Assembly (NCBI RefSeq): GCF_030268085.1
Contig: NZ_BSDE01000003.1
Span: 310,001 to 374,000 of the forward strand
Source of the DNA: Geothrix limicola
GTDB lineage: Bacteria; Acidobacteriota; Holophagae; Holophagales; Holophagaceae
Reading direction: 5' to 3'
Length of the DNA: 64,000 nt
In this document: piece after piece, positions 42,976 through 53,939 of the stretch
How the letters are laid out: each line of letters starts with the position of its first letter
Position numbering within the stretch: the first letter of the stretch is position 1
Notes under the pieces: generated by a model
What the model saw: only the letters and a program-made list of their open reading frames with translations
What the model was told of the DNA's origin: nothing
Databases searched by the model: none
Program-made: the position numbers and the translations under genes

Positions 42976-45900
42976 CTAATCGAAGGTCTCGGGCTCCGGT
43001 GCGGGCTTGGGCGCCTGCTTGAAGATGGCCGAGGCGCTGCGCCGCCCATCCATGACGATGTGCAGGGGCGCATCCACCCGGCTGTGCACGAGGCAGCCCG
43101 ATCGCGAGACCACCGGCTGTTGGCGCAGCCAATCCCAGTCCAGGCGGCTCGATCCCCGCGGGTAGGGCACGGTGAAGTAGCCGATGTTGAGCGAGGTCAC
43201 GTTGTGGAAGAAGTGGGAGCCCAGCGAGGCGTCCGCCTGGAAATGCTCCATGGCGTATTCGACGATGACCTGGGCGCAGGAGATCATGGACCAGGTGATG
43301 GGGATGCCCAGGTGCCGGTCGTTGCTGCCCCAGCGGCCCGGGCCCAGCAGCACGTACTTGCCGCCCTCCGTGCGGAAATGGTCGTTGAGGTGCTCCAGCT
43401 GCACGGCCAGGGCGGGAGTCTCGAACTTGTCGAAGCCGTCGGGATCCACCCACACGATGTCGCGCAGGCCCTCGACCATGCCGTTGCCCACGCACTTTTC
43501 CGAAAAGAGGAAGAGGTCCTCGGGCACGAGGTCCGAAGCCACCAGGTTCACCTCGCCGTTGTCGAGGAGCTGGTGCTTGATCTGCAGCAGGGTGAAGGTG
43601 GGTTTGCCGCTGTTGGGATCCTTGTCCAGGTTCACGGCGAACTCGATCTCGACGGGCGTCTCCATGGCCTCGCGGATGAGTTCGAGCAGGCGTTGCAGGA
43701 TCTTGGCCAGGGGAAACTGGTCGTACTTGAGGATGTTCCGGAAGTTCACGATGCGGGCGCCTGGGCTGTCCAGGCCGTCGCGGATGCGGTCGTCGTTGTT
43801 GTCCCAGACCGAGGCGCAGTGCTGGAGGGCGCCGTCCTTCTCGGCCTCCGAGATGTCGAGGGTGAGCAGGGTGGCATCCTCGCCGCCGTAGAGGTCCACC
43901 GAGGTCTGGCTCATGTCCAGGGCGTAGAACTGCTTCTGCGTGGTGCGCAGCTGCTCCTTGGGCGGCAGCATGTCCATCTCCGGATAGGGCGGCGCGAAGC
44001 GGTAGGTCTTTCCGCCTTCCACGACGTACTTCCCGAGGCCCACGGCGATGTTGGCGATGCCGTCCTGGGGCTGGGTGTAGGCCACGGGGTAGTAGTTGAA
44101 GGATTGCGCCACGCCGGAGATGTGCGGGTAGAAGCGGTCACCGAAGCGGCTGCCCGAGACCTCCTGGATGAGGATGGCCATCTGCTCTTCCTCGATCTTG
44201 TAGTCGATGGCCGTGAAGTAGGAGCGCGAGGCCTTCGAGTAGACCGAGGCGTAGACCAGCTTGATGGCCTCCGTGAGCTGGGCCTCGCGGACGGCCGGAT
44301 CGGGATCGTTGTTGGGCAGGAAGAAGGTGTTGTAGAGGCCCGCGAAGGGATGGGACAGGCTGTCCTCCAGCAGGCCCGAGGAGCGCACTGCCAGGGGCAC
44401 CTTGGCGTGCTTGGTGAGGAAGAGACGCAGCTTGGCCACCAGCTCGGGGGAGAGCGAGCCCATGAGGAAGCGCCGCTTGATGGCGTCGTCGTCCACGTCG
44501 TTCTGCAGCATCTGGCGCAGGCCGTTGCGGGTGATGAAGCTGTTGAACTCCTCGGTGCCGATGATGGCCGAGCGGGGGATGCGGATGCTCGCGTCGGGCA
44601 GCAGGTTGTCCAGGTCCAGCCTGGAGAGGAGGGAATGCATGAAGGCGACGCCGCGGCCCTTGCCGCCCATGGAGCCCGGCGCCAGGCGGAGGATGTTGGG
44701 CTCGTCCTTGGGGGTGGATTCCGTCAGGGGGATCACCTTGCCCAGCGTCCTCATGCGCTGCACGTAGTCGCCCACGTTGATGAGGAAGGTGCGCATCTCC
44801 TCGGGATCGCGGTAGTCCGTGATGCGGAACTTGGCCAGCACGCGGGCCACCTGCACCTCGCCGCGGGCCATGATCCAGGCCGAAAAATGGTTGCGGGAGG
44901 CGTGGTAGACGAGGGATTCCACGGGCACCGTGCGCAGCTTGGCCTGCAGGTCCTCCATGTCCGTGGCCCGGGTGATCTCGGCGCCGTTGGCGTCGCGGAA
45001 GATGAAGTCGCCGAACCCCAGGCTTTCGTAGAAGAAGTTGGAGAGTTCGGCGCCGAGGGTGTACGAGTTCTTGTTGAGGAAGCCGCTGTTGATGGCCGTG
45101 GCCCAGGATTCCTTGAAGGGGTCGGACGACTGCAGCAGGGTGGGCAGGTGGGGGTTGCGGTCCTTCAGGGCCTTGATGAGCTTGATGCCGGCCTCGCGGT
45201 CCAGCACCCCGTCCTTGGGGAACTTGCGGTCCGTGATGAGGCAGAGCATGTAGTCCTGGTACTTGTCGCAGAAGGCCATGGCCTCTTCGTACGTCGTGGC
45301 CAGGATCACCTTGGGCCGGACGCGCATGGAGAGCGTGCGCGTCATGCCGTCGATGGCCTGGTCCTTGGCGAGGCGCGTCGTCTGCTTGAGGATCTCGGCG
45401 TAGAGGATGGGCAGGTACCGCGAGTAGTAGCGGATGCTGTCTTCGACGAGCAGGATGACGCGCGTGAGGCCGACCGCCGTGTCGTTCTCGACGTTGGCGC
45501 GGTCCTCCATGAACTTCACCATGGCCATGAAGATCTCGGGATTGCCGTTCCACACGAAAATCTGGTCGTAGTGGCGGTGCAGCTCCTGGCGCCGCCGGTC
45601 CATGGCGCCCACTTCGACATTGTCGTTGAGCAGCAGGTAGATGGGGATCCGCGGTGCGGCCTTCTTGAGGGCTCTGGACAATTCGAGGTGGCCGCCCTGG
45701 CCGAGGCGGCTCATGACGATGATCATGTCGAAGTGGCGGGTGGAGCACTTCTCCAGGGCTTCTTCCACCGTGGAGACGTTGATGACCCGGGGCGGGTTGC
45801 TCATGTTGAGCTGGTAGTAGCCGTCGAAGAGGATCTCGGTGAGCAGGCCGTCCTGCTCCAGCGTGAAGGCGTCGAAGGCCGGGGCCACCAGCAGGATCTC

Positions 45901-45987
45901 CCGCGTGCGCAGGGGCATCAGATCGTGGAAGATCTCCTTGTCCGAGGCGTACTTGCGGAAGATCTCATTGAATTCGCGACTGATCAT
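42976..45987 (-). CDS. Two receiver-like domains fused to a PEP-synthase-type ATP-grasp domain
   Basis: A 1003-residue cytoplasmic protein. Residues about 30-155 are a receiver-like fold without phospho-acceptor (IIVMSRLGQGG). Residues about 175-335 form a second receiver with VILLVEDSIRYYSRYL, Asp in CLITDRKFPKDG, Ser in LLQSSDPF and Lys in FLNKNS. From about 440 comes a PPDK_N/PEP-synthase nucleotide-binding region: LAPGSMGGKGRGVAFM, VPLAVRSSGLLEDSLSHPFA, then GLGKYVVEGGKTYRF and LGPGRWGSNDRHLGIPITW. The swivelling His domain and the PEP-binding barrel of true PEP synthase are absent. Start at MISREFNEI has GAGG 8 nt upstream; an upstream ATG adds a non-conserved leader. Probably a phosphorylation-controlled phosphotransferase or nucleotide-binding signalling protein; the reaction is unknown. 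Confidence 0.88.
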   Translation of the reverse strand: MISREFNEIFRKYASDKEIFHDLMPLRTREILLVAPAFDAFTLEQDGLLTEILFDGYYQLNMSNPPRVINVSTVEEALEKCSTRHFDMIIVMSRLGQGGHLELSRALKKAAPRIPIYLLLNDNVEVGAMDRRRQELHRHYDQIFVWNGNPEIFMAMVKFMEDRANVENDTAVGLTRVILLVEDSIRYYSRYLPILYAEILKQTTRLAKDQAIDGMTRTLSMRVRPKVILATTYEEAMAFCDKYQDYMLCLITDRKFPKDGVLDREAGIKLIKALKDRNPHLPTLLQSSDPFKESWATAINSGFLNKNSYTLGAELSNFFYESLGFGDFIFRDANGAEITRATDMEDLQAKLRTVPVESLVYHASRNHFSAWIMARGEVQVARVLAKFRITDYRDPEEMRTFLINVGDYVQRMRTLGKVIPLTESTPKDEPNILRLAPGSMGGKGRGVAFMHSLLSRLDLDNLLPDASIRIPRSAIIGTEEFNSFITRNGLRQMLQNDVDDDAIKRRFLMGSLSPELVAKLRLFLTKHAKVPLAVRSSGLLEDSLSHPFAGLYNTFFLPNNDPDPAVREAQLTEAIKLVYASVYSKASRSYFTAIDYKIEEEQMAILIQEVSGSRFGDRFYPHISGVAQSFNYYPVAYTQPQDGIANIAVGLGKYVVEGGKTYRFAPPYPEMDMLPPKEQLRTTQKQFYALDMSQTSVDLYGGEDATLLTLDISEAEKDGALQHCASVWDNNDDRIRDGLDSPGARIVNFRNILKYDQFPLAKILQRLLELIREAMETPVEIEFAVNLDKDPNSGKPTFTLLQIKHQLLDNGEVNLVASDLVPEDLFLFSEKCVGNGMVEGLRDIVWVDPDGFDKFETPALAVQLEHLNDHFRTEGGKYVLLGPGRWGSNDRHLGIPITWSMISCAQVIVEYAMEHFQADASLGSHFFHNVTSLNIGYFTVPYPRGSSRLDWDWLRQQPVVSRSGCLVHSRVDAPLHIVMDGRRSASAIFKQAPKPAPEPETFD

Positions 45988-46024
45988 CGGGAAGGCCTCG
46001 TCTCTCCGGCAGTTTACTTCCAAC

Positions 46025-46058
46025 GCAGAAATGGGGGCCATTCGGCCCCCATTTCTGC
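46025..46058. terminator. Perfect 15-bp hairpin downstream of gdhA
   Basis: GCAGAAATGGGGGCC-ATTC-GGCCCCCATTTCTGC between gdhA and the receiver-PEP-synthase gene. It has no T tract beyond the stem, but the A/T-flanked GC core resembles a terminator for gdhA; partial read-through could feed the downstream gene. Confidence 0.6.
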
Positions 46059-46077
46059 GATCGCGAAAGGCTGGTGG

Positions 46078-47427
<1,350 letters not shown>

Positions 47428-51572: not shown

Positions 51573-51624
51573 GCCGCGCTTCCTTCGCCCATGAGGGGCC
51601 TTCCACCCTAGGATGGTGCTTACC

Positions 51625-53226
51625 ATGCCCAGGACGCGCCCGGTCTTCCAGCTCAGGGCCAGGATCAACCTCCTGGTCTGCCTGATTCTCGCCCTGGTCC
51701 TGCTCGTGACGGGCCTCATGGTGCACTGGCGGATGGAACAACAGACCCGGGAGGCCCTGGGCGAGAAGGCCATGCTGCTGTCCCGCCTCGTGTCCGAGGC
51801 CGAGGTGGTGCGCGAGGGCCTCGGCGGCGGTCGCCCGACGGCCCAGGTCCAGGACTATGCGGAGCAGGTGCGGCTCGAGTCGGGCATGGACTACGTGGTC
51901 GTGATGGACATGCAGGGCCTGCGGCTCTCCCATCCCAACCGCTCCCTGATCGGCGCCCGCTTCGCCGGAGGCGACGACGCCGATGTCTACCGAGGCCGCT
52001 CCTACCTGTCCGTGGCCAAGGGCACGCTGGGCGTCTCCCTGCGGGCCTTCACGCCGGTCCGGGTGGGGGATCGCCAGGTGGGGGCCGTGGCCGTTGGCAT
52101 CCTCCAGTCCGGGGTGGACCGCGCGGTGGTGAGCATCCGCAAGCGCATCGCCCTGGGCGGCCTCATCGGCTTTGCGGCGGGGATCCTCGGCGCCATGTAC
52201 CTGGCGGGCCGCATCAAGCGGATCCTCATGGGCATGGAGCCCCAGGAGATCTCGACCCTGCTCCAGCAGCGCAACGCCATGCTGCATTCGGTGCGCGAAG
52301 GCATCATCGGCGTGAACCGGGAGCTGGTGATCACGGTCGTCAACGAGGAGGCCCTGCGCCTCTTCGCCCTGGCGGGCAGCCACGGCGCCCTGGTGGGCCG
52401 CAACGTCGAAGACGTGCTGCCCAGCTCGAGGCTGCGCGCGGTCGTGGAGACGGGCCAGGCGGAGTACGACCAGGAGGGCGACATCCTGGGCCTGAAGATC
52501 CTCACGAACCGGGTGCCCGTCCTCGTCGATGGGCGCATCTCCGGGGCCGTGGCCACCTTCCGGGACAAGACCGAAGTGAACCGGCTGGCGGAGCAGCTCA
52601 CGGGCGTCCGCTTCTACGCCGACGCCCTGCGCGCCCAGACCCACGAGTTCATGAACAAGCTGCACGTGATCCTCGGCCTGGTGAAGCTGGAGGAGTACGG
52701 GCGGCTCAAGACCTTCATCACCGACGTGGCGGGAAGGCTGGATGACGAAGTGGGTTTCGTGGTGCAGCGCATCAAGGATCCCGTCGTCGCCGGCTTCCTG
52801 TTGGCGCGCTTCTCTACGGCGCGGGAGCAGAACATCCTCATGCGCCTCGACGAGGAGGCCTTCCTGCCGCCCTGTCCCGAGGACGCAGCTTCCCACGACC
52901 TCGTCACCGTGCTGGGCAACCTGCTGGAGAACGCCGTCGAGGCCATCGGCGAGGGGAGCCGCCGGGAGATCCTGGTCTCACTCCGCCCCGAGGAAACCTT
53001 CGTGCACCTGTCCGTCACGGACAGCGGCCCGGGCCTGCCCGAGGGGCTCCTGGACAAGGCCTTCACGCTGGGCTTTTCCACCAAGGGCGAGAACCGCGGC
53101 TTCGGGCTGTGGCAGGCCGCTCGCACCATCGAGACCCGGGGGGGACGCCTGGTGGGGGAGAATCAGGAAGGCGGCGGGGCCCGCTTCACGGCCTCACTCC
53201 GCCTGTTCCCGGGGGGGGAGCCATGA
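51625..53226 (+). CDS. CitA/DcuS-type sensor histidine kinase
   Basis: A 533-residue membrane kinase. TM1 (about 11-31), a periplasmic PAS/sCache domain (about 35-165) with DYVVVMDMQGLRLSHPN and YLSVAKGTLGVSLRAFTPV, TM2 (about 172-190), a cytoplasmic PAS (about 215-320) and a SPOB-type dimerisation segment QTHEFMNKLHVILGLVKL with phospho-acceptor His, then HATPase with NLLENAVEAI, DSGPGLP and GFGLWQAART. CitA/DcuS kinases sense citrate or C4-dicarboxylates. Start taken at 51625 because GGATGG lies 8 nt upstream; 51613 is the alternative. It overlaps the regulator gene by 4 nt. Confidence 0.92.
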   Translation: MPRTRPVFQLRARINLLVCLILALVLLVTGLMVHWRMEQQTREALGEKAMLLSRLVSEAEVVREGLGGGRPTAQVQDYAEQVRLESGMDYVVVMDMQGLRLSHPNRSLIGARFAGGDDADVYRGRSYLSVAKGTLGVSLRAFTPVRVGDRQVGAVAVGILQSGVDRAVVSIRKRIALGGLIGFAAGILGAMYLAGRIKRILMGMEPQEISTLLQQRNAMLHSVREGIIGVNRELVITVVNEEALRLFALAGSHGALVGRNVEDVLPSSRLRAVVETGQAEYDQEGDILGLKILTNRVPVLVDGRISGAVATFRDKTEVNRLAEQLTGVRFYADALRAQTHEFMNKLHVILGLVKLEEYGRLKTFITDVAGRLDDEVGFVVQRIKDPVVAGFLLARFSTAREQNILMRLDEEAFLPPCPEDAASHDLVTVLGNLLENAVEAIGEGSRREILVSLRPEETFVHLSVTDSGPGLPEGLLDKAFTLGFSTKGENRGFGLWQAARTIETRGGRLVGENQEGGGARFTASLRLFPGGEP

Positions 53227-53939
53227 TCCGCGTGCTGCTGGTCGAGGACGATCCCATGGTGGCCGAGCTCAATCGCGTCTACCTGAGCCGCGTGGCGGGC
53301 TTCGAGATGGTGGCCTCGGTGCGGAGCGCCGCCGAGGCCCTGGACCTGCTGCGGGACCGCCCCGTGGACCTGCTGCTGCTGGACATCTTCATGCCCGGCC
53401 AGAGCGGCCTCGAGCTCATGGAGGAGATCCGGCGGCAGGCCCTGGACGTGGACGTGATCTTCGTGACCGCCGCCCGGGACACGCGGACCATCGACCGGGC
53501 CCTGAAGCTGGGCGCCGTGGACTACCTCATCAAGCCCTTCGAATTTGAGCGGCTCAAGCAGGCGCTGGATCGCTATGGCGAGACGCGCCGTTTGATCCGA
53601 GGCGGCCGGGCCCTCGATCAGACCGAGCTGGACCGGCGCCTGGCCCGCCAGCCCGTCGACGGCCCCAAACTGGAAGGACTGCCCAAGGGCCTCGATCGCA
53701 ACACCCTGGACAAGGTGCTGCGGGCCATCGAGGCCTGGCCGGGGGAAGGCCCCGGGTTCACCAGCGAGGACATCGGCCAGCAGGTGGGCATCTCCCGGGT
53801 GTCCGTGCGGAAGTACGTGGAGTTCCTCTGCACCCTCAGGGTGTTGCGCATGGAGCCGGGCTATGGCACCGGCGGGCGGCCCGTCCACCGCTTCCAGCTC
53901 CAGCGGGCCCACCTGCCGCAGGCGCAACGTTTCCTCTGA
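53223..53939 (+). CDS. CitB/DcuR-type response regulator
   Basis: A 238-residue regulator: receiver (about 3-120) with LLVEDDPMVAE, D54 in LLLDIFMPG, Thr in VTAARD and Lys in YLIKPFEFERL; linker; and C-terminal HTH (about 175-225: FTSEDIGQQVGISRVSVRKY). This layout is that of the CitB subfamily. It is coupled to the CitA-type kinase by ATGA overlap and lies upstream of dctA, its likely target through the repeats at 53979-54006. Confidence 0.93.
   Translation: MIRVLLVEDDPMVAELNRVYLSRVAGFEMVASVRSAAEALDLLRDRPVDLLLLDIFMPGQSGLELMEEIRRQALDVDVIFVTAARDTRTIDRALKLGAVDYLIKPFEFERLKQALDRYGETRRLIRGGRALDQTELDRRLARQPVDGPKLEGLPKGLDRNTLDKVLRAIEAWPGEGPGFTSEDIGQQVGISRVSVRKYVEFLCTLRVLRMEPGYGTGGRPVHRFQLQRAHLPQAQRFL

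Follow-up and report, generated by a model that had tools for sequence, protein, structure and literature searches.

Glutamate dehydrogenase (GDH) stands where carbon and nitrogen metabolism meet, and to our knowledge its post-translational control is poorly known in most bacteria. GarA and OdhI are FHA-protein regulators of GDH in Actinobacteria, and one or more trans-acting genes downstream of gdhA in Bacteroides thetaiotaomicron reportedly affect GDH, going by the title of a 1996 study by Baggio and Morrison. From a structural point of view, the nearest described systems are phosphoenolpyruvate (PEP) synthase and pyruvate phosphate dikinase (PPDK), the rifampin phosphotransferase (RPH) of Listeria monocytogenes, and Enzyme I of the phosphotransferase system, whose swivel domain hands a phosphoryl group from a His to another protein, having received it from PEP and not from an ATP-grasp domain. 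Here we describe a gene lying directly downstream of gdhA in Geothrix limicola, within a 64,000-nucleotide stretch of contig NZ_BSDE01000003.1 (RefSeq assembly GCF_030268085.1, positions 310,001 to 374,000; hereafter the window, in which all positions are counted). We refer to its product and the relatives that likewise carry two receiver domains as family A. With a probability of about 45%, we take family A to be a phosphotransferase of the ATP-grasp/phosphohistidine kind that is gated by a receiver and dedicated to the control of GDH, which it may phosphorylate.

Like RPH, family A has the ATP-grasp fold, equivalents of Arg117 and Thr136, and at the C-terminus, judged by the modelled fold, a probable swivel-type domain whose His is conserved; unlike RPH, it has no rifampin-binding domain, its C-terminal domain is unrecognisable by sequence, two receivers stand in front, and GDH is its neighbour. 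With PEP synthase and PPDK it shares PPDK_N and the order of domains, PPDK_N being followed, by fold, by what is probably the central swivel domain, whereas the PEP/pyruvate barrel and the GGxTSH motif are missing and receivers are added. The N-terminal phosphohistidine domain of Enzyme I is likewise of the swivel type. As in the role proposed for family A, GarA and OdhI alter GDH activity as the products of other genes; they differ in being FHA proteins. Tentatively, family A could be likened to an enzyme of the PEP-synthase/rifampin-phosphotransferase type that has lost the domain for its small-molecule acceptor. The features of the locus are as follows.

42976-45987, minus strand: family A gene, 1003 amino acids counted from the likely start M19 (the open reading frame runs to 46041)
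45487-45909, minus strand: receiver 1, degenerate (residues 45-185); VIA-align Z up to 15.9, conservation in 61 family A proteins
45001-45465, minus strand: receiver 2 (residues 193-347); VIA-align Z up to 16.5, near-invariant residues in 61 family A proteins
45229-45231, minus strand: D271, predicted phospho-acceptor of receiver 2
43573-44670, minus strand: PPDK_N ATP-grasp domain (residues 458-823), with K461, R553, E559, D560, T572, E800 and Q820
43006-43566, minus strand: C-terminal domain, modelled with a swivel-type fold (residues 826-1012); no Pfam family; conserved G902-R903, E928 and S939-x-G941-x-H943-F944
43213-43215, minus strand: His943
46078-47427, minus strand: gdhA, NADP-specific-type GDH, the conserved neighbour immediately upstream of the family A gene

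The reading frame at 42976-46041 is single and intact and encodes 1021 amino acids, on which, rather than from M19, the residues are numbered. In 18 of 37 close relatives there is no start codon upstream of the counterpart of M19 (position 45987), and in the other 19 the called frame begins elsewhere; because those 18 have no earlier start, the protein probably spans 42976-45987, the limits drawn by an earlier prediction made from the letters alone (hereafter the original prediction). The gene is present in one copy in the G. limicola genome. Sequence and models together show a degenerate receiver, a canonical receiver and a PPDK_N ATP-grasp domain with its catalytic residues, followed by a C-terminal domain that is probably of the swivel type. 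The whole-protein AlphaFold2 model is of moderate quality (pLDDT 72, pTM 0.47). A sequence search of the PDB with a single family A protein gave zero matches, and with a profile of 25 sequences the best stretches were confined to receiver 1 and the ATP-grasp domain. Searches of open-licence PMC papers brought up no description of the family.

The original prediction had proposed a degenerate and a phosphorylatable receiver joined to a PPDK_N-type ATP-grasp, and both parts are borne out by the folds and residues found. Receiver 2 carries the acidic pocket, phospho-Asp, Ser/Thr, Lys and fold expected of a response regulator: E200, D201, D271 and S305 are each present in 60 of the 61 A proteins and K324 in all 61. 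Receiver 1 falls short of this set: the acidic pocket is absent, the phospho-Asp is missing from the same 61 proteins, and W164 stands near the site of the conserved Lys. The Pfam Response_reg match, covering residues 82-137, is weak (E 6.6e-5, under the gathering score). As to the source of the signal, a HisKA_3-HATPase_c kinase gene adjoins the A gene at three loci (L137, L139 and L155, with a PAS domain in two) and a fourth, L136, has a member of the same kinase cluster, so that the cluster lies beside A at 4 of 65 loci, with neighbours in part annotated and three of the four cases confirmed by Pfam. In the window, no histidine kinase gene stands next to the family A gene. By eye, a sensor-kinase-like open reading frame of 537 amino acids occupies 51613-53226 of the window and is followed by an overlapping one of 276 amino acids at 53109-53939.

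The ATP-grasp domain is recognised by sequence (Pfam PPDK_N, residues 458-823, E 1.5e-35), and in the whole-protein model it matches RPH (5hv1, Z 19.6) and PEP synthase (2ols, Z 19.4). K461, R553, E559, D560, N577, E800 and Q820 do not vary among 60 A, 10 B and 17 C relatives (families B and C being described below) in an alignment of 88 rows that took only proteins longer than 550 amino acids with the GGK and GxHF motifs, a filter that bears on the conservation of K461. This alignment omitted five of 92 relatives, namely two A and one C protein that are cut or split and two B proteins, one of which has no GGK pattern. None of these catalytic residues, the loss of which would have counted against the original prediction, is lost in the 87 aligned relatives. 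When aligned to RPH, R553 falls on the equivalent of Arg117 and T572 on that of Thr136, the latter position being Ser in all 17 C proteins; according to passages of PMC4844700, substitution of Arg117 or Thr136 abolished rifampin resistance. Fold and residues together suggest that the domain binds ATP. The window protein stays far below the NCBIfam cut-offs of the named enzymes, the best score for the PEP synthase/PPDK equivalog being 54.8 bits against a cut-off of 883 and that for rifampin phosphotransferase (NF041857) 12 bits against 999.

The original prediction had stated that both the phosphohistidine swivel and the PEP-binding barrel are lacking; the second statement stands and the first is probably wrong, so that of the two domains the swivel is probably present, by fold, and the barrel is not. 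The C-terminal domain gave no swivel family in Pfam among 42 such domains (best E 0.021, with PF00391 matched by 0 of 42), and the PF00391 profile did find its targets elsewhere, at two other places in the G. limicola genome and in all 14 control genomes. Modelled alone, residues 826-1012 give a confident structure (pLDDT 89.7, pTM 0.88). VIA-align was used to re-align the 1000 best Foldseek candidates, with a caution line at Z 8, and 50 rows were listed, all of which we take to be swivelling beta/beta/alpha domains in the sense of SCOP. The top nine, at Z 5.5-6.7 and thus under that line, are of the phosphohistidine type and come from PPDK (central domains), Bacillus pyruvate kinase (its extra domain) and Enzyme I (Z 5.8), and the His domain of RPH follows at Z 5.0. 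Residue 943 is a His in every protein that reaches the position (60/60 A, 12/12 B and 18/18 C, 90 of 90 with no motif filter applied), in a motif G-[STN]-H-F-[FY] that takes the place of GGxTSH. In swivel domains the catalytic His lies in the order GGxTSH, helix, LGIP, strand. In the isolated model, H943 is the first residue of a helix that is followed by a strand, which is the local layout expected of such a catalytic His. We consider it likely that residues 826-1012 are a diverged swivel domain. As for the barrel (PEP-utilizers_C), there is no Pfam match at E<=1, and the open reading frame stops nine residues past the modelled domain; the PEP/pyruvate barrel is probably the sole part of PEP synthase missing from family A. 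The whole-model alignment to RPH ends with 947 opposite 829, a register that would place H943 on His825 if ungapped and that is not relied on; the 2ols row, which ends with 953 opposite 428 and has its His at 422 by count, disagrees with it.

The position just downstream of gdhA, already pointed out in the original prediction, is conserved far beyond the genus, and the role in carbon-nitrogen control that it had drawn from this position is supported by linkage to GDH in three phyla, across which gene orders and sensor heads differ. An A gene is present in 73 genomes of an even draw of 247 from Acidobacteriota, at 75 places among the matches listed; these are A-type rows only, B and C rows being excluded, as were the fragments G092:C235 and G186:C502, a second piece in G175:C84 and a partial A-like gene (G042:C166:6669-8807). 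A GDH close to that of the window is found in 88 of the 247 and co-occurs with A in 67. At E<=1e-130, GDH is present in 67 of 73 genomes with A vs 21 of 174 without, an odds ratio of 81 with phylogeny ignored. GDH precedes A on the same strand within 2 kb at 51 of these 75 listed places; for the others it is on another contig (12), absent (6) or in other arrangements (6). Pairs no more than 500 bp apart occur in 49 Acidobacteriota genomes, 31 of them outside the genus Geothrix. Sampling of 198 Bacteroidota and 149 Spirochaetota genomes found relatives of any type in 34 and 28, respectively. Among 24 A genes at 20 hand-picked Bacteroidota loci, GDH is directly upstream of 17, directly downstream of one and divergent from one, with none for five. 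Two gut Bacteroidales, Parabacteroides distasonis and Phocaeicola massiliensis, each have an A homologue that is divergent from gdh, and a second gdh lies ~3.5-4 kb past its other end; in one of the two the homologue is annotated as 'PEP/pyruvate-binding domain-containing protein', the other record being without annotation. In a Prevotella record, GDH was not found within 9 kb of the A homologue. In Spirochaetota (20 loci of the 30 places listed), GDH is the next called gene for 13 of 16 C genes: ten precede gdhA with no called gene between, across gaps of up to ~2.1 kb, one is convergent with it and two lie behind a second GDH paralogue, the remaining three having an intervening RecQ-type helicase gene, no GDH, or a contig edge. 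One of the four Spirochaetota A genes is next to gdhA. The original prediction had looked to a recurring partner, and it is GDH that recurs. We regard a functional tie between family A and GDH as very likely, and family A probably switches GDH on or off.

The ATP-grasp and C-terminal domains also occur under other heads. Family B consists of these two alone (~550-730 amino acids), whereas family C adds a different conserved N-terminal region, for which the PDB gave no match and which may tentatively be likened to the GAF-like sensor domains that stand ahead of histidine kinases. One scanned C protein has a C-terminal nucleotidyltransferase domain, and 13 of 33 end in a tail of similar length. 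At the loci surveyed in Acidobacteriota and Bacteroidota, a second, distant GDH paralogue heads B-C or C operons; it is this paralogue that lies directly upstream of 7 of the 12 B genes and 5 of the 18 C genes, with nine more C genes behind B. One set of loci was chosen in part for holding B and C, so that its counts are not those of a random sample. Among the matches listed, many genomes have A but neither B nor C, or C but no A, so that neither needs the other. In the C protein at L091:5966-9148, NTP_transf_2 follows the swivel-type domain, which recalls nucleotidyl transfer onto metabolic enzymes. PADLOC matched one C protein, mainly through its NTase-like tail, and gave none for the window protein and one B protein; zero family A matches were found in the viral contigs searched.

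The two partners also vary together. Across 42 gdhA-A pairs, the correlation is 0.87, reached in 0 of 5000 permutations. At four Bacteroidota loci with a tandem gdhA-A ... gdhA'-A' arrangement (L136, L137, L139 and L140), each GDH keeps its own partner type; the true pairing gives r 0.826 and swapping all four gives 0.802, a small drop that speaks for consistent pairing and not for which member belongs to which. When 43 A-paired GDHs are compared with 19 unpaired ones (one of which, at L246, comes from a locus containing a C-type piece), six positions differ, chiefly at the C-terminal end and at S84, the contrast being confounded by phylogeny. D441, D445 and Q446 are found in 39, 43 and 41 of the 43 paired GDHs and in 5, 6 and 7 of the 19 unpaired, and may possibly form a contact site, with the same confounding. 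The gap between the two genes holds one further feature.

46024-46059, minus strand: perfect 16-bp inverted repeat with a 4-nt loop in the gdhA-A gap, terminator/attenuator-like

Strong hairpins with changed stem sequences are present in all nine other Holophagaceae gdhA-A gaps folded, often with an A-tract before and a T-tract after in the manner of a two-way terminator; the terminator scan did not list the repeat at 46024-46059.

The idea of a two-component input on a PEP-synthase-like ATP-grasp module, acting as an undescribed kinase or phosphotransferase, finds support in this build. From it we infer a cycle, including its chemistry, direction and target, in which a sensor kinase, such as the HisKA_3 kinase encoded beside A in some Bacteroidota, would phosphorylate Asp271 of receiver 2; the phosphorylated receiver would free or close the ATP-grasp domain, which would bind ATP; His943 of the swivel-type domain would be phosphorylated from ATP; and the phosphoryl group would pass to GDH or to a GDH-bound ligand, altering GDH activity. 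Catalytic phosphoryl transfer by family A is somewhat favoured, and GDH as the acceptor is a more tentative proposal. A wider possibility, which we hold doubtful, is that PPDK_N and the swivel-type His domain form a new signalling output or relay module, a 'histidine kinase' made from PEP-synthase parts and not from HATPase_c/DHp, fitted with two receivers (A), another N-terminus (C) or no head (B); phospho-His943 would then serve receiver 2 and/or GDH, the latter as a dedicated target in at least three phyla. If family A does phosphorylate GDH, it would represent a new class of protein phosphotransferase. In any case, an unnamed conserved protein that takes a two-component input and is encoded next to GDH in Acidobacteriota, Spirochaetota and Bacteroidota, two gut Bacteroidales among the last, is a concrete candidate for a GDH regulator.

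Several observations weigh against a phosphohistidine phosphotransferase acting on GDH. Linkage of the genes does not by itself establish GDH as the target, shared ancestry alone would also give the gdhA-A co-variation, and the 43 paired and 19 unpaired GDHs yielded no clean paired-only Ser, Thr or His site. The A gene has no adjacent GDH in 5 of 24 Bacteroidota cases, 8 of 31 in two Acidobacteriota batches and 3 of 4 in Spirochaetota. Among the Acidobacteriota, the close GDH is missing from 6 of the 73 genomes with A and occurs without A in 21, and G. limicola itself has a second, distant GDH (34%) on another contig. The terminator-like hairpin in the gdhA-A gap suggests that in Geothrix relatives A has a transcript of its own, or else is reached by read-through. 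Concerning the swivel, Foldseek found nothing at E<=1e-3 for the isolated domain, the VIA-align matches are weak (Z at most 6.7, below Z 8, with other folds of the same broad class tying within 1 Z), and profile-profile comparison with swivel (PEP-utilizer) domains by hhalign gave E 0.23 in the wrong region.

Some of these points would suit a non-catalytic sensor of energy or nucleotides, in which the ATP-grasp domain would read ATP/AMP, the protein would be an allosteric GDH subunit and the receivers would bring a second input. The linkage to GDH is compatible with any direct regulator, there is no acceptor barrel, and GDH offers no clean paired-only phospho-site, yet we think this unlikely, since the phosphate and metal residues kept in 87 aligned relatives, with H943 in 90 of 90, exceed the needs of binding alone. 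Less likely again is a metabolic enzyme under signalling control, transferring a phosphoryl group to, or ligating at the expense of ATP, a small molecule derived from the glutamate, 2-oxoglutarate or ammonia made by GDH. The ATP-grasp relatives PEP synthase, RPH and PigC do use small molecules, and GDH would provide the substrate, but no substrate-binding domain is recognised apart from the swivel-type domain, and the sensory heads vary while the GDH neighbour is constant; one module with several heads and a constant GDH neighbour speaks for control of GDH and against a pathway enzyme. The presence of PPDK_N with a swivel-type domain would also be expected of one half of a true PEP synthase or PPDK whose barrel is encoded elsewhere. 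This is very improbable, the swivel-type domain being too diverged for PF00391, though that profile works elsewhere in the genome, and the recurring neighbour being GDH, with no barrel gene among the neighbour proteins scanned.

One feature of the protein lies outside its recognised domains.

44773-44970, minus strand: linker region (residues 358-423), with a sub-threshold DUF5752 match (E 0.0019)

The DUF5752 match recurs, again below threshold, in one distant relative. In the wider neighbourhood, a gene cluster (c6) with one member identified by Pfam as a metallophosphoesterase lies near A, B or C at L085, L086, L087, L089, L091 and L152 and might encode a reverse enzyme. In Spirochaetota, genes of ~300 and 460-472 amino acids follow the C and gdhA genes at L218, L221 and L223; at L221 they encode an Fe-S/NAD-binding reductase subunit and a Fer4_20/Pyr_redox subunit, which may perhaps supply NADPH to GDH.

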